Shown here: piece by piece, positions 1-60,168 of the stretch
Layout: each line of letters starts with the position of its first letter
Numbering within the stretch: position 1 is the first letter of the stretch
Assembly: GCF_025602895.1 (NCBI RefSeq)
Contig: NW_026516256.1
Location: 62,001-126,000, forward strand
Origin: Polychytrium aggregatum
Lineage: Eukaryota > Chytridiomycota > Chytridiomycetes > Polychytriales
Direction: 5' to 3'
Length of the DNA: 64,000 nucleotides
The notes under the pieces: generated by a model
Told to the model about the DNA's origin: nothing
What the model saw: the letters and a program-made list of their open reading frames with translations, nothing else
Database searches by the model: none
Program-made: the position numbers and the translations under genes

Positions 1-589
1 CCTGCTGTTGCAAAGCACACATTCACGAAGCCTGCTGCAACCAGTAAGTTGATGGCATACTCAGGCTGTTGGCACTGGCGTGAAGCCCCTGTGCTTGCTT
101 GCTTGATGTCGCATCCATCGTAAACGGCGAGACATCAGCTTTCCAATGGCGCGACTCCCGCGGGACTGATCAACCGTCCATTCCTGACCCGGGGTTGCAT
201 TGCACCGACATTCTTCATCACTGTTGTTAGAGCCCGCGTATATCTCAGTCAAGAGTCGACCAGCGACCGGAAAGGTGGCTGCGGTCTTCCAAGAAAGTAC
301 TGCAGACGACTCTTCCAGTAAATCAGCATCCTCCGGCCCCTCTGAAAGCGGATCGATCCCTCCAACTCTCAGGTAAGCCCAGCGCAGCATCAGCCGCCTG
401 CGCCGTGTAATGTCTGCGTATGTTGCGTTGCTCCATATGCCCCGGCCTTTGGCACTATTTCCGTCGGTGGTGTATCAGTGTCGCCAATGCGCACGTCGCC
501 TGCCCAAGCATGGGCGTCTGGCATAAGACCAAAGAGACATCGACGTTATCGACACCAACACCGTCGTCCATCCAATATTTGATACACAG
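1..589. other. 5' flank of the SAC3-domain gene; exon structure unresolved
   Basis: The first 43 bases can be read as coding (Pro/Ala/Lys/Thr-rich) and end in a good donor, GTAAGT at 44-49, so an upstream exon of the following gene probably starts before the window. A second possible donor, GTATGT, lies at 418-423. I could not join these pieces in phase to the exon at 590. The region holds no other gene I can support. Confidence 0.35.
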
Positions 590-2491
590 GGACTATGTGA
601 ATCGTGTCTACAGTGCGTGTACGGATGGAGCACTGCGGGAAAAAGCCAACCAGGAACTTACGGCTTTGATTGAAGGAATCAATCACCGCAAAGCGATGTG
701 GACGACCGACTGGGAGAATATGCCTCTGCCAAAGTATGTTCGTGACCTTGGCCGAGCGCCGAGAGGGTAGGCAGTGTGGCCGGAATTCTGACCAAACCTT
801 GGCTCTTGCTCATCAGATGCTTGATGGACCTCAAAGCCTTACCAAAGGATGGGGGTTCTCCAGTCGCTGCCTCGTCGCCTTCACCGGCATCATCAAAGAA
901 GCGCAAGAAGCATGGTGTTCAGGACGCAAATAAAAGCTTCGAGTCACCCAAGCTCACGACCAAGGATTTTGCTCCTTCTGTGGAGGATTTCAACGAGCAG
1001 ACCAAACGGGAACAGCGAGCCAAGCGATTCCAGGAGTCGTATGAACAAGAGAAGCGGCAAACGATCCAGAACCAGACCATCAGCAAGCGTGCTAAGATGG
1101 CGGCCATTAGCGCTGGTGCTGAGGGCAACCCCGACGTTATCGACTGGGACGAGCACACGATCGTGGGGACCAGCACTCAGCTGGAGAAGCGGTATCTTCG
1201 GCTGACATCGGTACGAAGCTGCCCTGATCCGAAGCTGAGGGGGTGTGTGAAAACGGATAACAGAGTGCAACGGGGCGCTGAATCAACCACCATTGCCGCG
1301 TCTCGCTCATCCCACCTACTCTACCCCTTGGCTTTCCAGGCCCCGGATCCTGCGACTGTTCGGCCACTCCACATCCTGAAACAAACCCTTGAGCTGCTAC
1401 TGAAGAAATGGCGGAGCGAGCGCAACTACACTTACATTTGTGATCAGTTTAAAAGTTTACGACAGGATCTGACTGTGCAGCGCATCAAGAACGAGTTCAC
1501 GGTGACTGTGTATGAAATGCATGCTCGGATAGCGCTGGAAAAGGTAGGGTGTCCGATATCTGGGGCATCTGCGACGCCCCGCATCGCCCCACGTAGTATC
1601 CAGCGCCGACTCGGACACCTACAAAGTTGCTCTTCTTTCTGGGTATCGGACTCGTAAAAAATGGACTCTGTTGGAGTTCCGGATTGTGTCTCTGCCTGTT
1701 GTACGCCGTCCAAAAGCCGAGGTGCGATTGCGTTGCTCACCACTGCGTCCGCCGTTGCAGAGTGATCTGGGAGAATACAACCAGTGCCAAGCGCAGCTCA
1801 AGCAGCTCTACGAGCACGGTCTCCCTGGGCATGTCGACGAATTCATGGGATACCGGATACTCTATTTTGTTCACACGATCAATCGGCAAGGTCAGTTGGT
1901 ACCTGAGGGTCGCCTACTGTATCGTTCGTTCGTTCGTTCATTGGCGTATTGAACGGCGTGGCGACTGACCCCCGATCTTCTCTCCACTCCGCCTACGCTC
2001 CTCTTTCCGACACCCTATTTTCTCTGGATGCAGGTCTGTTCAACGCGATTTCGAGTCTGACTGACGCCCAGAAAGCGTCCGAATCCGTGAGACACGCCCT
2101 TGCAGTCCGTTCATCGATAGCGATAGGAAACTACCGCCAACTCTTCCGACTCTACCTCGAGGCACCCAACATGAGCGGCTACCTCATGGATCAATTTATC
2201 GATCGTGAGCGTATCAGGGCCATGAAAGTAATCTGCAAGGCTTTCCGGCCGGATATTCCAGTGCAATATCTCACTCAAGTTCTGGGGTTCAGCCATCCCG
2301 ACAACGAAGCTCCCGACGATGAGGAAACACGCTCATGTCGCCAGTGGCTGATCCTGAAAGGCTGTATCTTTGCAAGCAACAACGACTATGCCCGCGGTGA
2401 CGTTGATGCCAAGCTCTCCAACTCAGTCTTTGCCGAACTCGAGAAGGCCAACTCAAGCAAGGGCGTTGACATCAAAGGACAAATCCACTAA
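590..2491 (+). CDS. THP3/LENG8-like SAC3/GANP-domain protein (5' partial)
   Basis: Five exons join in phase: 590-733, 817-1210, 1340-1543, 1761-1890, 2034-2491. All introns are GT-AG. The first exon holds an alpha-helical stretch ending in WTTDWENMPLPK. The second is a charged linker followed by VGTSTQLEKRYLRLTS, the start of the SAC3/GANP domain. Then come KQTLELLLKKW, YICDQFKSLRQDLTVQ and IALEKSDLGEYNQCQ, which are hallmark strings of the Thp3/LENG8 branch. A PCI-like helical region follows (SIAIGNYRQLFRLY, FIDRERIRAMKVICKAF). Family knowledge: yeast Thp3 works with Csn12 in transcription elongation and mRNA maturation; LENG8 is the animal relative. The N-terminus is missing, probably because earlier exons lie to the left. 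The family assignment is firm; the 5' end is not. Confidence 0.85.
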
Positions 2492-3437
2492 GGGCGTCCT
2501 GTGTCGCGAGATCCGGATGCTGCCCCGAATCAAACTTGGCCCTGCGACATGGTACATCAGCCACAAAGCCTCGCAACTGCCCCCCCCCGGCACCAAGCAC
2601 AACTCAAGCCAAACACACACCCGCACACGGTGGGAGGGCGAGAGAGTGAGGAAGGACCAACCCGGATGCCACATGTCGCTTTTGCGTGCAAGGAGCCAAG
2701 TTTGGTGTGTCAAGGCTTTGGGAAAGGCGGAGAGAGCGGACGAGCGGCGTTGCGGCTGTCGTGGGAATGCTTTGCGGATTTGCATGGGCATTGTCGGTGA
2801 CGATGAGGTTGGGCGTACTGTGGAGGTCCCAGCCAGCAGTGTGCCTGAGGAGTTGGAGAGATCCAAGAGATGGGCCATCAATACAGCGCTTCTGAGCCGG
2901 GACAGGCGGGCCACTTTAAGCATGTGCATAGACTGCATTGGCAGAGCGGGCAACTGCCAGAGGCTCGATCAGAGAGGGAGGCAGCAGTGCAGACGACGAT
3001 GGTGCAAACGACGAGGGTGCAGCAACTCAACTGGGAACCAATAAACAATGATCTCCTCCCCCTTGAACAAACTGCCTCATCCGGTGGCGCCGGGCTGCAC
3101 GCATCAATATCCGATATCATCCGATATCATCCGATATCATCCTGTGTCGGCGTGATGGCCCTGGAGGAAACATGGCCGGTCGATGCCGCCATCTGTGGCG
3201 GTGCTGGCGCGAGCATGCGCTGCCTGTGCCACGAGCCGACGCGCATGTGCGACGTGCGCCGCACCGGAAATGACGCCATTGCCGTCCACTCAGAGCCGCG
3301 CCATCGGTGAGTCAGCCGACCACCACACACACACACACTCCGGGCGTATATATAAAGGCGGTACCGGATTCCCGTTCTCCCGCCGTCTTGCAATCCTCCC
3401 CGTTTCTTCCGCCACCCACCCGCCTCCAACAGCCATC
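2492..3437. other. Intergenic region and promoter of the dioxygenase gene
   Basis: No convincing gene is visible. It contains three perfect copies of a 10-bp unit (CCGATATCAT) at 3111-3140, a short CA run near 3322-3338, and a strong TATA box (TATATATAAA) at 3347-3356, about 80 bp before the ATG at 3438. Confidence 0.6.
3347..3356 (+). promoter_or_regulatory. TATA box of the acireductone dioxygenase gene
   Basis: The string TATATATAAA lies 82 bp upstream of the start codon and directly before a pyrimidine-rich leader. Spacing and sequence fit a core promoter element. Confidence 0.6.
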
Positions 3438-4663
3438 ATGGTCAACGCCTGGTTCTTCAACCCCACCGACGAGGACAAGCGCGAGCTGCACCAGTTCGTC
3501 CCCAACCAGCCCGTCTCGCTCGAGGAGCTGGCCAAGCTCGGCGTCGAGTACTACTTGTTTGACGACCAGGAGAGCGTCGATGCCTTTGCCCTCCAACGCC
3601 AGTACAAGAACCGTGACCTGGTAAGCCAAGCCCCGAGGCAGTGACCTCCCCCCCTTCGCCTTCTCTCGGCCTGATCGGCCCAGACGAACTCGCCCTGACG
3701 TCATTGACCCGCTTGCCTCCAGATCACCATCCACAAGGACAAGCTCCCCAACTACGAGGAGAAGCTCGAGAACTTTTTCACCGAGTGAGTTGTCCTTCCT
3801 CCTGCCCGAATCCACCAGGCTTGATCGGCAGACCCTGGCCTGGACTCTGCTGTCCTGCTTGATCTCTAGCCCGAGCTGCTCTCGTCTAACGACTGCCGTC
3901 CCATTCTGTGCCTGTGCCTCCAGGCATCTCCACGATGATGAGGAGATCCGTTACATCAGTACGTATCGGCGGCCCTCGAGCCATATCGGCCTGTTGATCT
4001 CGCCCCAGTTTGCTCGGTCGTGTGCGGCGCCCGTCTATTGCCCGCATTCTGGCCTTCGTCCGCCCCCTCGCTCTGTGCTGACCTTTCGTTCTGCATCGCC
4101 GACATCATGCAGAGGAGGGAACCGGCTACTTTGACGTCCGCGACCACGCCGACCGCTGGATCCGCATCCAGGTTGAGCCCAAGGATCTCCTGATCATCGT
4201 AAGTGACAAGTGTGGCTCGGCTACTGGATGGGGTTGTCTGCATCGGCACCGACCATGCGGTTTGTGGTCGTTGGCTGGCCATGACTAACCACGGATCCTA
4301 CACACTTGGTTCTAGCCCGTTGGCATCTACCACCGCTTCACCCTGGACACCAACAACTACATTGTTGCCCTCCGTCTCTTCCACGACGAGCCCAAGGTAC
4401 GTCTGGGGCATGTCTTCACAGTGGTGCTGCCATCCCGCCCAACCGGCTTCCACTTGTGCTGTCCTGCCTTGTGTTGCCTGCCCTGTGCTTTTCCAATTCC
4501 TTCGCTGATCTGCTCGGTTGGACGCCAGAGACTCCCATGCTCACTCTGCTTCTCTGTCCGTAACCTTACACAGTGGACTCCCTACAACCGCCTCGACACT
4601 GCTACCGATGCCCGCCCCTCCCGCGACGTCTACCTCAAGCAGTTTGTCGCTGTCGAGAACTAA
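3438..4663 (+). CDS. ADI1: Acireductone dioxygenase (methionine salvage)
   Basis: Six exons (3438-3620, 3723-3784, 3924-3958, 4113-4198, 4316-4396, 4574-4663) give a 178-residue protein, the usual size of the family. It starts MVNAWFF and has the cupin metal site [11 protein letters not shown] (H-x-H and the following Glu) plus the last His in GIYHRFTLD, and the string [10 protein letters not shown]. The enzyme oxidises the acireductone made from methylthioadenosine to 2-keto-4-methylthiobutyrate and formate (Fe form) in the methionine salvage pathway, in cytosol and nucleus. The ATG follows a TATA box and has a good context (ATCATGG). All introns are GT-AG and every phase closes. It ends 138 bp before the convergent transporter gene. 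Confidence 0.96.
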
Positions 4664-15638: not shown

Positions 15639-17213
15639 TCAGGGCCACTTGCCGAGGTTTTTGAGGCAATCGATGGATCCTCCAAGACCCTGGTTGGCAG
15701 ACTTGCGGAACCAGAAGATGGCGGTATCGATCTCCACGGGGACACCAAAACCAGCTTCATAGCAAGATGCAAGGGAAAACTGCCCATATGGATTGCCCTG
15801 TTCGGAGGACTTGCGATACCACTCAATTGCCTTGGCGTAGTCCCTGGTGATGCCGTCTCCAGTCAAGTGGCAACCGCCAAACATCCACTGCCCAAACGAG
15901 TTGCCTTGGCTGGCCGACTTGCCGCACCACTTGAAAGCCATCTTGAGGTTCCGCGACACTCCCCCGTTGTAATATGAGTAGCACCTTCCGATCCAGTACT
16001 GACTGTCGCTGTGACCGTCGTTGGCGAGTTGCTCGAAGATGACCGCTGCCTTCTCCCGGTCCTCGGTGGTTCCGAATCCCTGATGCAGACAAACAGCCAT
16101 CAAGTGCCTGCAAAGCCAGTCTCGGTCCGATCCCAGCTGGCACAGCTGGAAGAACTTTGGGGGTGCCGGTGAGTCGGACGAGATATTCTTCCGATACGCT
16201 GCCAGGCACTGGTCCTCTCCGAGCTTGAAATCGTCCGATTGGTTTTCCCGGATGATCTTGGCACCCATTGGCTCGTCGCGCACGGTGCCCCGGCCGAGGT
16301 AGTGCATCCAGCCAACCATGTGGGTGGCGATGGGCTTGATGACTGGGTTGGTGGACTGGGTGCTGACTTCCTGCCAGTGAGCGAGGGCATCGGCGTCGCT
16401 CTGTTCGACTCCGTGACCGATGAATGAGAACCATCCACGGAGGAACACGATGTGGAACCGACCATCTTCGCTGCCTTGATCTGCGGCCTTGGAATACCAC
16501 TCGATGGCTGCATCGTAGTCTTGATCAACACCTTCGCCAACCTCGTAGCAACAGGCAAAGACAATTTGGGCTTGCAGGATCCCACGTTCGGCAAGATTGC
16601 GATACAGCCCGGTGGCCTTGGTGTGATCTTGTTCGACTCCAGTTCCGTTGCGATAACACTGCGCGAGGTGGGACTGCGCCATTGGATGTTGGCCTTCAGC
16701 AGCCTTCATCAGATGTTGGAATATCTGCTGATTCTTGGCATTCTTTATAGGCTCATCGTCGTCGTCAGTCTCACCGTCACCGTCATCGTCATCGCCAGTC
16801 TGACTGTCATCTTTTGCTTCCGAGTCGATCCCAGATTGCAACATCCGAGCCAGGAGATACGAGGCAGCAGCATTGCCCTTATCGGCTTGATCTTCGAGCC
16901 AGGATCGGTCAGTTGTGGCTTGATCATCGCAGTACAGCGAGAGGGCGATTTTGTCGCTGGGTGTGAGACCGATCCGCATCTGTCCATCCGGACGACACAG
17001 TCCTGCCTTCTGACACCAACGGTGGAAGTGAGGCACCTTGGAGCTCAGGAGCGGCCGGGCCCGCTTGCACACTCGGAGGAGAGTCTTGATGGTGCTGAGG
17101 TCGAGGGCGAGTTGGAAGCTGTCGTTGCAGCAGATGATGGTGAAGATATCTGGGTTATGCTCGTTGATGGCCGGTCGAACCGTGTCAGTTGAGGGATGGA
17201 CACTGGCAGCCAT
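15639..17213 (-). CDS. Sel1-repeat protein
   Basis: A single uninterrupted frame of 524 residues with the ATG in good context (GCCATG on the plus strand). After an N-terminal region of about 90 residues there is an acidic Asp-rich insert (around residues 140-155) and then at least seven Sel1-like (TPR-type) repeats, for example AQSHLAQCYRNGTGVEQDHT, FACCYEVGEGVDQDYDAAIE, GRCYSYYNGGVSRNLKMAFK and FGGCHLTGDGITRDYAKAIE. Such solenoids bind other proteins; Sel1L and Hrd3 act in ER-associated degradation, but this protein has no signal peptide or membrane anchor, so only a soluble scaffold role can be proposed. It is the only long gene here without an intron, apart from the transposon genes. Confidence 0.9.
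   Translation of the reverse strand: MAASVHPSTDTVRPAINEHNPDIFTIICCNDSFQLALDLSTIKTLLRVCKRARPLLSSKVPHFHRWCQKAGLCRPDGQMRIGLTPSDKIALSLYCDDQATTDRSWLEDQADKGNAAASYLLARMLQSGIDSEAKDDSQTGDDDDGDGETDDDDEPIKNAKNQQIFQHLMKAAEGQHPMAQSHLAQCYRNGTGVEQDHTKATGLYRNLAERGILQAQIVFACCYEVGEGVDQDYDAAIEWYSKAADQGSEDGRFHIVFLRGWFSFIGHGVEQSDADALAHWQEVSTQSTNPVIKPIATHMVGWMHYLGRGTVRDEPMGAKIIRENQSDDFKLGEDQCLAAYRKNISSDSPAPPKFFQLCQLGSDRDWLCRHLMAVCLHQGFGTTEDREKAAVIFEQLANDGHSDSQYWIGRCYSYYNGGVSRNLKMAFKWCGKSASQGNSFGQWMFGGCHLTGDGITRDYAKAIEWYRKSSEQGNPYGQFSLASCYEAGFGVPVEIDTAIFWFRKSANQGLGGSIDCLKNLGKWP

Positions 17214-17358: not shown

Positions 17359-17405
<47 letters not shown>
17359..17405. repeat. (AC)n microsatellite
   Basis: About 46 bp of uninterrupted AC dinucleotides in the gap between the Sel1-repeat gene and the end of the transposon. 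Confidence 0.95.
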
Positions 17406-17406
<1 letters not shown>

Positions 17407-17512
17407 CAGCCAGGAAATACCTTCCAGGGTCATGTTTTGCTTGCCAAAATGATACTGGTAACAGTCGTACTCGGTGAAGCTCCCTGGTGTACAAAAACAC
17501 AAACACCATTTA

Positions 17513-17539
17513 CACTTTATTCAGAAAAAAACGGGACAC
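17513..17539 (+). repeat. Terminal inverted repeat, Fanzor side
   Basis: Twenty-seven bases beginning CACTTTATTC and ending in ACGGGACAC. It pairs with the repeat at 21241-21267; the match is strong in the inner half and weak in the outer half. Confidence 0.88.
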
Positions 17540-17675
17540 CACAGCCGTTTCCATGAGCATGTAGTATGTGCTGTGCTTGCGTCAAGCAAAGCCACAAGAA
17601 ATAAAACAGATCACTTTGGCAGCCTCCGAGTGAAGACCGCCGGTCGCTCTCCGATCTCCACAATCGACCTGCATA
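17540..17675 (-). ncRNA. Candidate Fanzor guide-RNA (omega-RNA) scaffold region
   Basis: This is a position-based candidate. In TnpB and Fanzor systems the guide RNA overlaps the 3' end of the nuclease gene and runs out through the adjacent element end, so the guide comes from flanking DNA. Here the segment covers the last 22 codons of the Fanzor gene and the roughly 70-bp untranslated stretch up to the terminal repeat. Support from the window: the 279-bp derivative at 59.9 kb has lost almost everything except the two ends, yet it keeps this segment at about 97% identity. No RNA evidence is available and I have not folded it. Confidence 0.4.
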
Positions 17676-20005
17676 CTATGATCATGTTGCGCGCCGCATT
17701 GACGTCGCGATTCCACACTGTCCGGCAGCTGGGATTCTTGCAGCTCCTGACAAAGTGGGAATTCGCAACACTGGGCGCATCGAGTCCTTCCAACCGAACT
17801 GGCTCCAGGCACTTGGAGCACACTTGCGAGGTGTTGAACTCGTTCGTCGAGACTACCTTGACGCTTCCATGAGGGTGATTGGGACGGCGTCGGTGGTGCT
17901 CGAATTGCTCAAAGTACTGAGCAAACCGCTGCCTCCGAGGGCTGGATGCATAGCCCTTGCCTTGACGCCATGATGCATTGCCAAAGGCGATCACCACATC
18001 GTCCGTATCGGGCGTGCTTCAGGACGGCCTTGTACATCTTGTCGACGGCCACTTGGCGCCTCTTGTGGCCCGTGAAGCGATGGTGACGGGCCTTCTTGCC
18101 AAGGTGGAAGTCGAGCTGCACTCGCAGCTCCGGTCGCAGGACATGAGTGAGATGGACCTTGAAAGCCTCCGAGGACGACACCTTGGGCGAGGGGGTGGTC
18201 GACATCCAGGTCTCGATGCTGAGTCGATACTTCATGGTGTTGTGCCACTTGGTGTTGAACGTATGGCCACACATGTGCTGATAGTGGCCATTGGAGAACG
18301 AGACCACCTCGTCTTGGTGACCTGGTGCTTGGATGACCGCCGTGAAGATGGAGCCGACTCCAGGATCGATGCCAATCCAAGTGGTGCGGTTGGGGTCTGG
18401 GTCGCCGATGTGGGCCTGGATACGCTGCTCGGCAGTCGGAGGAGGCTCGATGGTCTCGGTGCGATCGGTTCGAGGCACAAACTTGACGAGGCCGATGGTG
18501 CATCCAATGCCATCGGTGCTGATCTCGTAGTTGAACAGCTTCCTGTCCCTGACTCGCTCTTGGAAGAGGGAACTACGCAGCTTGAAGCAACTGCGCCAGA
18601 GACGATCCTGGTTGTTGATGCCGTCATCACCTTCTTCCTTGAGCTTGTCCCTGGTGAGTCCAAGGCGCTTCTTTGGACCCAGGAGATTCCAAAGAGTGAC
18701 CGTGTCAATCTTGACATACTTGGCCTTGGCTGTGCACAGAGGGACCATCGTGCACACGGCCGGAGGAGTGTCCAGAGCGAGCTGCTTGAGTGCCCACTTG
18801 ATCCTGGATGCCAGCTTGTTGATCTTGGCCTTGGTGGTGCCGAGCTCAGACTTGACCTTGGCGAACCTCTTGTCGTCGGAGGGAATGCCTCGGGCAGTGA
18901 GCTCGTCCAGCTTGGCCTGGCGCTGCAGCTCGGTGACTCGGAGGGCGGGCATGTCACAGTCGATCCACTTGTGGACATTGTCGACCATCTTGTCTCGGGC
19001 GAGGATTCCCACATGGGGTGAGAGGCGATGGAGGGCCCGGAAGTGGTCCTGGTCGTTGCTGTACCGAAACTCGTCCAGGACGTGGCCAAAGTCGGGATAG
19101 AGGAACTCGATATCGGCCTTGGGTGGAGTCTGCCCTGGTTTCTCTAAGAGCTCAAGACAAGCCTCGATGGCGTCGTGCTTGTGCTTGTTGGCTGGGAAGA
19201 CGGCAGCGCAGAAGCGGCGAAGGAGTCGCCAGTAGGCCAGGTCGAGGTGGGTGGTGCAGTTGGCAGCATAGGCATTGACAGCCAGTGTGAGAAGCTGACT
19301 GTGAGCACCATCAGGCAGACGAGGGGCCGGAGGCAGGTCTGCGTGCCGAGTGGTCTGGTAGTCGCGAAAGGAAGCGACCAGATGCTCGTTGTATTTCTCA
19401 TTGTCCCCGGTCGGGGAGAGGGCATCGGCTTGGACGATCTTGAAGCATTGGCGAACGAAAGCAGGGGTGGACTTGGAGATGACGGGGACGGGAAGATCCT
19501 GCTCGATGCACCGGAGGATGTGCAGGTTGAGCAGCCTGGATGCCTCGAACTGGATCTGGGTCATGGCTGCGACAGTGGCCTGGATCTTGCCCCAGAGGTC
19601 GGGATTGAGCCACTGTTTCTTTGCATTCTTCCAGAAGATGCCGTCCATGGTCTGCTTGAAGCAGCTGAACTGAGGGGCCGATGACCTTCCATCCACGAGT
19701 GGGACGACAGAGCTCTTGAGGGGCCGGTATTTTGGACATTTGCTGGTGTTGCAACGTTCGTGATCGGTGCCATCGCACTGGCGACATCGCTTGCCGGTAC
19801 TCGAGGAAGTAGATGGACCAGGCTCGGTGGGATCGACATCCATTGGATCTGCAGAAGCAGTGGTGGTGAGCGACGGAGCAACAGACGACCAAGCATGCGT
19901 GGGATCAGAATACGAACCAGAGACAGGCTCCGACTGTGACTTGGCTTTCTTGGGCCTGGGTGGCCGAGGCTGGCCATCACCGGTACCCTTACGCTTCGGA
20001 GGCAT
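17611..20005 (-). pseudogene. Fanzor (eukaryotic TnpB-like RNA-guided nuclease), one frameshift
   Basis: Frame 1 (20005-17909) starts at an ATG with basic nuclear-localisation-like PPKRK and RPKKAK, then a Cys/His cluster at residues 74-90 (C-x2-C-x4-H-x2-C-x4-C), an all-helical middle and the RuvC-I motif WIGIDPGVG (Asp about residue 547). Homology then moves to the next frame, which ends at 17611 and holds VVIAFGNASW, STNEFNTSQVCSKC, a second zinc pair SCKNPSC and the RuvC-III motif NRDVNAARNM. The switch falls in a short G run at 18010-18012; no intron fits there. The Glu in NEFNTS may be the relocated RuvC-II glutamate described for Fanzors (from memory). So the gene is full length but frame-broken, unless the base call is wrong. 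It follows the transposase by 38 bp on the same strand. Confidence 0.85.
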
Positions 20006-20043
20006 GGGGGCAGAGGATGCTGGATGCCTGCCAGTGGTACTGG

Positions 20044-21183
20044 TCAGAGCAGAGACTTTTTTTTATCGTACAATAGCGCGATGATCAGATCAAGGCGAGA
20101 TGAGGGAAGAAAGCAGCAGGACGAAGGTGTGGCATTTATACCCGAGAGCAGGAGCCCGTCTTTGCGGGCTGGTTGGAAGTGACCCTGTTCAAAAATCGCC
20201 GAGAGGTTCAAGCCAGGGATGTGAACGTGAGAACGGCGGCTTGATCGGAGGGAACTCAACCCCAGAAGCGCACACTCAATCAGCCGTGGGAAGACATCTG
20301 GAAGCACCCTCCGAACGGCAGACTCAAACAGGGTCACCATCCCGACTCTGAACCCCTCGGACGCATTCAGCGCTGCTGCCTTCCTGTACTGATGCTTCAC
20401 AATCCCAAAGAAGTTCTCGATGGGATTGAAGTCGGGTGAAGCAGGTGGGGTGAAGATCACTGACCATCCTCGGCGCTCGATGCAGTCCAGGACAGGCATT
20501 GTCTTGTGCATGCTGACATTGTCCATCACAATCACAGAGTCGTCTGGGAAGGTCGCTCGCTCAAAGAACTCGACCATCGAGTGTGTCTTGAATGATGTGG
20601 GGATGTACATGCGATGCAGCACACCAGAGTGGTTGATGGCAAATGCAGCCGAGACAGACTTGTGTTTCATGTGATTGCACTGGCGAAGCGGAGCACCCTT
20701 CGGCGAGTATCCGTAAAGAGGGAAAATGGATCTCCTGATCCCCGTCTCATCGACAAAAACGAATCGCCGCGGGTCGATGGAGCGGACCTGGTCCCTGAAC
20801 TGTGCCACTCGCTCATCCAGTCGCTTGGACTTGTAGAGGTGTGTTGCCCTCTTGTGTGAGAGACCTGCTCGGTGGATGGCAGTGTGGCAGAGTGAGAGTG
20901 ATACTTTCCTCTGGGGGATGGACTCGAGCTTGCATCGCAGCACAGGACCAGTCTGGAACGGGTCCTGTTCAATCAGGGTGCGAATGACTGGACATGCCTG
21001 CTCGAAGAAAGTGGATCTGCGAGCTGGGACCCGGGATGGGTCATCCAGCTTGCATCCTCGGTGCCATCGATGGATGGTGCTCTTGGATACACTGAATATG
21101 GAGGCGACCTTACGCAGGCTATGGATGAGGGCGTAGCATCGCAATGCGGCGGTGCGAAAGTCGGATGTGTGGCGAATGGTCAT
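20044..21183 (-). CDS. Tc1/mariner (IS630-type) DD34E transposase
   Basis: An intact frame of 379 residues with ATG at 21183. The N-terminal helix-turn-helix reads LRKVASIFSVSKSTIHRW, a paired-like DNA-binding fold that recognises the terminal repeats. The catalytic triad is visible: Asp145 in FVFVDETGIRR, Asp221 in SVIVMDNVSMHK and Glu256 in DFNPIENFFG, with 34 residues between the second Asp and the Glu, hence DD34E. The enzyme cuts and joins at TA dinucleotides. The start lies 84 bp inside the right end of the element. All catalytic residues are present and no stop interrupts it, so activity is plausible. Confidence 0.95.
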   Translation of the reverse strand: MTIRHTSDFRTAALRCYALIHSLRKVASIFSVSKSTIHRWHRGCKLDDPSRVPARRSTFFEQACPVIRTLIEQDPFQTGPVLRCKLESIPQRKVSLSLCHTAIHRAGLSHKRATHLYKSKRLDERVAQFRDQVRSIDPRRFVFVDETGIRRSIFPLYGYSPKGAPLRQCNHMKHKSVSAAFAINHSGVLHRMYIPTSFKTHSMVEFFERATFPDDSVIVMDNVSMHKTMPVLDCIERRGWSVIFTPPASPDFNPIENFFGIVKHQYRKAAALNASEGFRVGMVTLFESAVRRVLPDVFPRLIECALLGLSSLRSSRRSHVHIPGLNLSAIFEQGHFQPARKDGLLLSGINATPSSCCFLPSSRLDLIIALLYDKKKSLL

Positions 21184-21240
21184 GGCCAGCGCGCGATAGC
21201 ATTGGGTAACAAAATATTCGATGAATGGTCAAAAACCCGG

Positions 21241-21267
21241 GTGTCCCGTTTTTTATTGGATTGCCTG
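21241..21267 (-). repeat. Terminal inverted repeat, transposase side
   Basis: Read on the minus strand it begins CAGGCAATCC and ends ACGGGACAC. It is the partner of 17513-17539 and is identical to the left end of the short derivative at 59888-59914. Confidence 0.9.
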
Positions 21268-21517
21268 TAAACCAACACCCTCTGCCATATACGTCGACTC
21301 CTCTCCAGCGTCACCCTCTTCCTTGGCTCGCTCGATTTCCCGCCCCTGCTCGCCCCATCCCCTAACCCTACCATCCTGCTCGAACTTCCGACATTCACCC
21401 CCGAATCTGAGAAAACGCTGTTGTATCATTTCAGCCCTAACGAACCACGACGATCGAGTCCAGAGCCACCATTCCTTCTCTTGAACGGTGCTAGTGCTTC
21501 CTCAAATCGCGCCTGCC

Positions 21518-38909: not shown

Positions 38910-39682
38910 TTGCCAGGAAGCATGTGCTGCCGCGGCTGATTGCACCTTTGGACCGTCGCTGGCTCCACGCACACATATTTGAGCGCACTACCTCGATGAC
39001 GAATTATACTGCGCCTGCTTTCTATCTGTGCAGTGTGAAGCGGGACACCATGTCGATATGGCCAGCAACGACCGTATTCCCTGGCTTCTGAATACAGCAA
39101 GCACATGAAAATGGGACACTCTGGTTTTTGACCATTGATCAAATATTTTGTTACAAAATACCGTCGCACCCTGGCCATGACCATTCGCCACACACTCGGC
39201 TTTCGCACCGCCGTGTTGCGATGTTACGCCCTCGCTCATAGCCTGAGGAATGTTACCTCCATATTCAGTGTCCAAGAGCACCATTCACTGCTCGGGCAAT
39301 CCGTTCGCAAGTCAAGCGATGCTCCGATGAGCTGTAACAGGCCGATCTCGATGCTCCATCCACGCATCCCCCAAAAGCCAGTGCTTGCAGATACGTCCTG
39401 CCCAATACCGACTGCACTTGCTCGCTGTCCCTCAGAGAAGCCGTGCCTCGGAGAAGCCATCGACAGCATCGTCATGGGCCGTGGGAGCGCCGGGCTGTTG
39501 CTTCTCGCCCGCTCTCGCCGAGACAGAGAGGGCCCCGAACCAGCCGCGCTCGTCCTTGGATGGCAAAACCAGCGTTCGATCCTCCCCGGCTGCTCTTCCA
39601 CCATCTCCCTGGTCGAATCTCTCTGCTCGTCCACGGCCCACGCCTCATCCCCGGCCCTGCCCAGATCGGTTGCTCAGCTGCG
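38910..39682. other. Intergenic region with transposon fragment
   Basis: Contains a truncated relative of the Tc1/mariner element (separate entry) and the promoter side of the sorting nexin gene. Nothing else is supported. Confidence 0.5.
39093..39294 (+). pseudogene. 5'-end fragment of a Tc1/mariner transposase gene
   Basis: Starts with TA and a diverged terminal repeat ending in TGGGACAC, then follows the right end of the 17.5-21.3 kb element through the transposase start. The reading MTIRHTLGFRTAVLRCYALA matches residues 1-20 of the intact transposase with a few changes. A 2-bp deletion after ATATTCAGTGT shifts the frame, and similarity stops about 10-15 bp later. No matching other end is nearby, so this is a truncated remnant. 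Confidence 0.85.
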
Positions 39683-59885: not shown

Positions 59886-60168
59886 TACAGGCAATCCAAT
59901 AAAAAACGGGACACCCGGGTTTTTGACCATTCATCGAATATTTTGTTACCCAATGTTATCGCGCGCTGGCCATGACCATTCGCCGCTGGCACTCCGAGAC
60001 CAGTGTGCAGGTCGATTGTGGAGACCGGAGAGCGACCGGCGGTCTTCACTCGGAGGCTGCCAAAGTGATCTGTTTTATTTCTTGTGGCTTTGCTTGACGC
60101 AAGCACAGCACATACTACATGTTCATGGAAACGGCTATATTGTCCCGTTTTTTTCTGAATAAAGTGTA
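59886..60168 (+). mobile_element. 279-bp deletion derivative (MITE) of the Fanzor transposon
   Basis: Flanked by TA at 59886-59887 and 60167-60168. The first 97 bases (59888-59984) match the transposase-side end of the 17.5-21.3 kb element with one difference, up to and including the start codon and first codons of the transposase. After 21 unrelated bases, 60006-60166 matches the Fanzor-side end at about 97%, including the last codons and stop of the Fanzor gene and the 3' flank. Both 27-bp terminal repeats are intact. It codes for nothing but should be mobilised by the intact transposase. Confidence 0.93.

Follow-up and report, generated by a model that had tools for sequence, protein, structure and literature searches.

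A 64,000-nucleotide stretch of the genome of the chytrid Polychytrium aggregatum (assembly GCF_025602895.1, contig NW_026516256.1, positions 62,001 to 126,000), referred to as the window in the following, carries a cut-and-paste element of the Tc1/mariner type with a Fanzor cassette as its 3′ half; we regard its anatomy and its membership in the mariner-Fanzor composites as shown. For this element, which represents what we call family A, we favour the reading that the Fanzor nuclease probably cuts guide-matching targets next to 5′-(W)TTA and thereby restores copies that have been lost. This reading is based on the survival of the Fanzor frame, a T found on only one side of the insertions, gene-less derivatives (ghosts) keeping the 3′ end, and the finding of no empty allele at 24 sites. 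Retention of the element by its Fanzor is plausible.

According to the proposed mechanism, RNA from the 3′-untranslated region (UTR) of the Fanzor gene would run via the 3′ repeat and the adjacent TA into host sequence, which would thereby become the guide. Sequence matching this guide would be cut only where it follows 5′-(W)TTA, i.e., in an allele without the element, and repair of the break from the filled chromosome would restore the element. The transposase would act in trans on copies carrying both ends. According to the available part of the report on SpuFz1 (PMC10432273), the purpose that Fanzors serve in nature by cutting DNA is unknown. Intact, transposase-less, and ghost copies, two Fanzor cassettes, same-site pairs, and a motif predicted from flanks are brought together by this family in one diploid-looking genome. 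Such comparisons are required for telling a preference of the transposase from retention driven by the nuclease, and the family is unusually good for testing Fanzor function.

Anatomy of the element and its two genes

TA is present on both sides of the element, as reported in an initial annotation of the window. TA duplication together with terminal inverted repeats is characteristic of IS630/Tc1/mariner elements. The repeats had been described as imperfect and 27 bp long; imperfect they are, but alignment of the element ends gave a length of 28 bp with 21 of 28 positions identical and 7 of 28 different, both repeats starting with CA. The view that transposase and Fanzor form a single Tc1/mariner unit was supported by 23 end-to-end matches to the element within its own genome (including the window), one of them covering positions 1–3751 of 3759. 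In all 23 and in nearly all partial matches, portions of the two genes follow each other in identical order, which ruled out two nested elements. No viral relatives of the element were detected in two scans of viral contigs, and an Rfam scan of the window gave no match reaching the gathering score.

In the transposase frame the Pfam domain DDE_3 was detected (Table 1), as it was in a family copy (E 5.1e-24). The family majority sequence contains the catalytic residues D, D, and E, where 34 residues separate the second D from the E, and the three motifs are also found in the window frame. Thus, the catalytic residues and DDE_3 of the annotated DD34E transposase are confirmed, but its C-terminus is not intact: a 5-nt deletion near the end of the gene changes it (379 instead of 310 amino acids (aa) in the majority) and is shared by the copy at the same site, L009. 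As the deletion extends the frame, the genes of the window are separated by only 38 bp; this previously reported gap holds for the window frames and amounts to 252 nt in the family majority sequence.

Relative to the majority sequence of 40 copies (Fanzor of 790 aa), the Fanzor gene of the window has two 1-nt deletions, and it is divided into two frames. RuvC-I (18373–18353) lies in the N-terminal frame, while the E motif and the first cysteine of the zinc finger (17844–17818), the second cysteine pair (17748–17725), and RuvC-III (17715–17686) lie in the C-terminal one. Contrary to the initial annotation, the 698-residue frame therefore contains neither zinc finger nor RuvC-III; it gave no Pfam and no PDB match, and the match to PF07282 is confined to the C-terminal frame. 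The same-site copy L009 on contig C335 has an open Fanzor frame of 798 aa. The break in the window frame falls within a cluster of differences to this partner and may be real or an assembly error. With the Fanzor frame broken and the transposase C-terminus altered, the window copy has its full length but is not an intact one, and the proposal that it is autonomous and nearly ready to use is not supported.

For comparison, 39 further copies were taken by best BLAST score to the window element, giving 40 copies in total. Removal of two rearranged copies (L039 and L047) and of one partner from every one of the five same-site pairs left 33 independent insertions. Typical Fanzor features were found in these copies; statements on published systems here and below refer to the available parts of the cited papers. 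The sequence GIDPGVG is present at RuvC-I, with D539 conserved in 33/33 copies, and DPG at this place is typical of Fanzors (PMC10711439). Fanzors use an alternative glutamate and not the canonical one of RuvC-II (PMC10711439). By our own assignment, the former corresponds to E715 in NEFNTS (33/33), and the presumed RuvC-II site is occupied by F667 (33/33). The four zinc-finger cysteines (33/33) are followed by D760 of RuvC-III (31/33), in agreement with the Fanzor signature of a C4 zinc finger and a subsequent RD (PMC3627910); in the window, these are out of frame with RuvC-I. A full-length family copy matched PF07282 with E 6.2e-9. The nuclease of family A is most likely a Fanzor1, a label that rests on its length, its occurrence in a mariner element, and the weak alignment of a profile of two families with the C-terminus of SpuFz1 (E 0.31).

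Family size, gene integrity, and target flanks

The window is part of a 64.7-Mb assembly of 418 contigs, which seems to hold both haplotypes. The copy count suggested in the initial annotation yielded 222 occurrences of the exact 28-base 3′ end, both haplotypes counted, and 0 for the reversed control, in addition to the 23 end-to-end matches. The family comprises about 200 copies in the genome.

Among the 33 insertions, which were ranked by similarity, Fanzor is intact in 25 and the transposase in 11; both genes are open in 9, only Fanzor in 16, only the transposase in 2, and neither in 6. For these calls, Fanzor stops in the last 16 codons were ignored, and L015 and L032 were scored as broken due to an early stop, although a later start leaves 736–737 aa. 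Stops and short frameshifts affect Fanzor in 8/33 copies (0.10 per kb) versus 10/33 for the transposase (0.36 per kb; p 0.008). With a mutation spectrum derived from synonymous changes, omega was 0.30 for shared variants and 0.51 for singletons in Fanzor, and 0.28 and 0.69, respectively, in the transposase, the last value not being significant (p 0.07). Both genes are under purifying selection. In a protein search, all 57 scored matches (the best by score of 1281 candidates) cover residues 1–790 at ≥94%, 10 of them with one stop. Ten short copies of 283–1114 bp, picked for closely spaced ends and including one site on two haplotypes, all retain at least the last 168 bp of the element; an eleventh ghost is located in the window itself (Table 1).

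On the transposase side, T precedes the 5′ TA at 80 of 83 distinct sites, and 63 of these 80 have A or T before that T; within the window, 14% of the TAs follow a T. No base preference was seen in the 84 distinct flanks at the Fanzor end, with the mirror-image A at +1 in 15/84. Both sets of flanks were taken, regardless of gene content, from the first 100 places listed of 163 and of 177, and each search pattern misses sites at which one far position is T. G is the final element base in front of the 3′ TA in all 32 copies (of 33) that end in TA. The possibility that the T belongs to the element was not adopted, as the bases next to TA differ between the sides (T versus random) and both repeats begin with CA. 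The T was therefore taken as target sequence, with none of 24 sites providing an empty allele to prove this origin.

In Spu-1 of Spizellomyces punctatus, two conserved bases, CA, are located upstream of the 5′ repeat, and the motif measured for SpuFz1 is CATA (PMC10432273), the second half of which we read as the TA duplication. Because of this similar layout, 5′-(W)TTA is predicted to be the target-adjacent motif of family A. Since the element ends in G, the guide at a filled site would be preceded by GTA, and the site would hence be spared from cutting.

A second family, B, was read at three loci (L064–L066) and combines another Fanzor with the same transposase half. Its first 1014 bp are 96.5–97.4% identical to the family-A majority, and the match between the families ends beside the transposase stop; the Fanzor of family B is 43% identical to that of family A (L064 and L065 versus L010). 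For 19 A and 3 B copies, the median A–B distance was 3.8% versus 3.0% within A, and only 2 of 1010 columns of the transposase half are fixed differences. At four family-B-type 5′ ends from the fetched loci, the base preceding TA is T in three cases and A in one. As a separate observation, a family-B-type 3′ end was found near a family-A copy at L006 and L007 (contigs C402 and C99), at the same place on both haplotypes and followed by differing sequence; here, Fanzor elements cluster or nest.

The four family-B-type 5′ ends bear on another explanation of the one-sided T, namely a target preference of the transposase exerted via the unequal repeats, with the Fanzor being a passenger or having some other role. 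Such a preference would agree with the dissimilarity of the two repeats and with T at 3/4 5′ ends of the family-B type, which, where read, carry the same transposase half and a clearly different Fanzor. However, the number of family-B ends (n = 4) does not decide the matter, and in SpuFz1, with its similar layout, the motif was measured as that of the Fanzor (PMC10432273). We regard a transposase preference as possible but rather doubtful.

Same-site copies and the search for empty alleles

For a comparison of empty and filled sites, as suggested in the initial annotation, 130 bp of each flank were joined at one TA for 24 insertions and searched in the own genome. No uninterrupted match, i.e., no empty allele, was obtained for any of the 24; in one search the best 40 of 573 candidates were scored, among which an empty allele would rank first, in the other all 40 of 40. 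A second genomic place exists for 17/24 sites, with both halves listed apart in 12 cases and one half listed in 5 (L010, L012, L019, L022, and L023). Because the two haplotypes are very alike, the lack of empty alleles gives weak support to refilling. The L022 flank occurs at three places (C359:341433, C359:365434, and C104:58471), probably as a duplicated segment including the element.

Occupants of the same site differ more than their surroundings. Five same-site pairs among the 40 copies showed 27, 120, 28, 85, and 16 aligned differences (0.4–3.2%), and their flanks 11 differences in 4903 positions. Six added partners, chosen mostly for unequal lengths between the flanks and thus not a random sample, differ in their bodies by 1.5–4.7%. 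The flanks of five added partners together with those of L042/L055 have 11 differences in 4722 positions, and those of L043/L061 have 1 in 861. Overall, the bodies in 11 same-site pairs of long copies are 0.4–4.7% apart versus about 0.2% for the flanks. Lengths differ as well: a 3633-bp element is opposed by a 312-bp ghost (L042/L055), 3739 bp by 1114 bp (L020/L058), and further gaps comprise 134, 105, and 24 bp. At 747 of 899 differing positions in the 11 pairs both bases occur in other copies, and in 9/11 pairs the longest identical run exceeds chance (p < 0.05). Non-allelic copies are at least 2.7% apart (median 4.0%; 893 pairs, the 1114-bp L058 excluded). Such a pattern in long copies suggests ectopic gene conversion or gap repair with changed templates.

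No exchange was seen at two ghost sites. The window ghost, which has a T before its 5′ TA, is the same on the other haplotype (0 differences in 1201 bp including flanks), as is the ghost pair L048/L049 (0 in 714 bp). As background, an IS607-like locus showed 9 mismatches in 2794 bp between haplotypes, another 200 bp being unaligned, and the surroundings of an old 5′-end fragment in the window 2 differences in 1301 bp.

Ectopic gene conversion alone, acting between old fixed copies independently of the Fanzor, would explain both filled sites and swapped copies, and we give it nearly even chances. It agrees with the prevalence of family-shared variants, the long identical runs, the star-like distances among copies around the median given above, and the transposase half shared by families A and B with two fixed differences. 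Nothing speaks directly against it; the identical ghost pairs and the IS607-like locus say little on a need of the Fanzor for conversion because the ghosts are short and the locus has few copies. An artefact of assembly or polishing, by which repeat copies were mixed in the consensus, could have produced the frame breaks of the window copy and the same-site differences. The predominance of family-shared variants and the position of the frame break inside a cluster of differences would fit, but whole-segment length differences such as those listed above are not made by polishing, and contigs of up to at least 1.46 Mb suggest long reads. Mixing could add point differences, hardly length differences, and we consider this explanation unlikely.

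A more far-reaching and, in our opinion, improbable view is that sites persist while their occupants change. The Fanzor would make each TTA site permanent, and the family would evolve as a single recombining pool and not through new insertions. An allele that had lost its element would be marked by the adjacent guide, cut, and refilled, with templates that may switch to another copy or stop early. If this were true, a fixed set of homozygous sites would serve for the exchange of complete elements, copies lacking the transposase, ghosts, and also different Fanzor cassettes.

Several points weigh against the favoured restoration of lost copies by Fanzor cutting. Old fixed insertions suffice to explain the missing empty alleles without any Fanzor, since the haplotype flanks are only about 0.2% apart and the copies are old, as judged from the minimum non-allelic distance, and 7/24 sites have just one place in the assembly. 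Given the unequal repeats, a preference for TTA in a single orientation could also stem from the transposase, and at 3/83 sites no T precedes the 5′ TA. The fold of the 3′ UTR is weak (z −1.94 for the family majority sequence and −1.15). Singleton Fanzor stops numbered 7 versus about 10 expected, indicating only mild selection on single Fanzor copies. Choosing the 33 copies by BLAST score disfavours those with large Fanzor deletions; this bias matters less for the comparison of stops and short frameshifts. When matches were ranked by the C-terminal domain alone, 44/80 rows assigned to family A by profile start showed an open frame of ≥700 aa, which is fewer than in the first sample.

Known relatives and neighbouring features

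In TnpB elements of the IS200/IS605 and IS607 types, an RNA-guided nuclease is encoded beside a transposase, and some copies lose the transposase and keep the nuclease. Unlike these, the element described here has a DDE cut-and-paste transposase, is of eukaryotic type, and bears Fanzor signatures. The genome also contains the IS607-like locus already mentioned (L067, C124:404300–407300) with a 476-aa frame at 1187–2617 (−). It begins with a MerR-type start (E 0.0058, below the cut-off), followed by a stretch that we read as serine-recombinase-like, and this part is joined directly to a TnpB/Fanzor2-like part (PF07282, E 2.4e-18; OrfB_IS605, E 1.5e-8). Among the PF07282 matches listed, a 477-aa open frame occurs at four places (C124 and C379). 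TnpB/Fanzor-like genes of the genome form groups at about 70.5, 61, 46, and 43.5 bits (PF07282; best 150 of 663 candidates).

The tandem of transposase and Fanzor had been annotated as a rare system, but Mariner elements with Fanzor1 (PGv-1 and PUl-1) were already described in 2013 by Bao and Jurka (PMC3627910). Like the present element, they have a Mariner-like transposase and Fanzor1 between one pair of repeats with TA duplications. Four related elements of that study have common repeats and a common 5′ transposase part with a differing 3′ part, similar to families A and B (PMC3627910). The present family differs from PGv-1 and PUl-1, as described in the available text, by its size of about 200 copies within a single genome and by the presence of same-site pairs, of ghosts, and of a transposase combined with either of two Fanzor cassettes. 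Spu-1 with SpuFz1 (Saito 2023, PMC10432273) resembles family A in several respects: a Fanzor1 lies between repeats, conserved bases precede the 5′ repeat, ghost loci retain the 3′ region, and a variable 3′ flank serves as guide, a role predicted for family A. In contrast, no transposase is reported within the Spu-1 repeats in the available part of that paper, while it is present here and intact in 11/33 insertions; furthermore, CATA was measured for SpuFz1 (PMC10432273) and TTA was predicted here from sequence alone. Novelty therefore lies in the resource and the exchange pattern, the kind of element being already known. Neither same-site exchange nor a TTA motif of a Fanzor mariner was found in the literature searched, which mostly excluded subscription journals and in which the motif was not searched by name.

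Table 1. Features of the window related to the Tc1/mariner-Fanzor element, with positions counted from the first letter of the window.
Feature	Position	Strand	Basis or remark
Tc1/mariner-Fanzor element (family A)	17513..21267	-	Order 5′ repeat, transposase, Fanzor, 3′ repeat; sequence and own-genome matches
TA target-site duplication, guide (3′) side	17511..17512	.	Sequence
TA target-site duplication, 5′ side	21268..21269	.	Sequence
3′ terminal inverted repeat, Fanzor end	17513..17540	-	Final G, then TA; sequence
5′ terminal inverted repeat, transposase end	21240..21267	-	Sequence
3′ UTR to element end, predicted guide-RNA scaffold	17513..17610	-	Retained by the window ghost and by the 10 short derivatives studied
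Predicted guide, host sequence directly past the 3′ TA	17491..17510	-	Analogy with the SpuFz1 guide (PMC10432273, available part)
Predicted target-adjacent motif, TTTA in element-ward direction	21268..21271	-	Count of T before TA at distinct sites
C-terminal Fanzor frame: E motif, C4 zinc finger, RuvC-III	17611..17997	-	PF07282, E 4.7e-11
N-terminal Fanzor frame, 698 aa, RuvC-I (DPG) only	17909..20005	-	Motif placement
DD34E transposase frame, 379 aa, altered C-terminus (majority 310 aa)	20044..21183	-	PF13358 (DDE_3), E 4.8e-22
Ghost derivative of family A, TA to TA, 283 bp	59886..60168	+	Gene-less; consists of the first 99 bp and the last 168 bp
Old 5′-end fragment, family A or sister family, 83.5% identical	39108..39287	+	Sequence comparison

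A gene for a Sel1-repeat protein adjoins the insertion in the window (15639–17213, −; PF08238, E 8.2e-51). Beside the insertion, at about 17360–17405, there is also a CA repeat, the length of which differs between the haplotypes.

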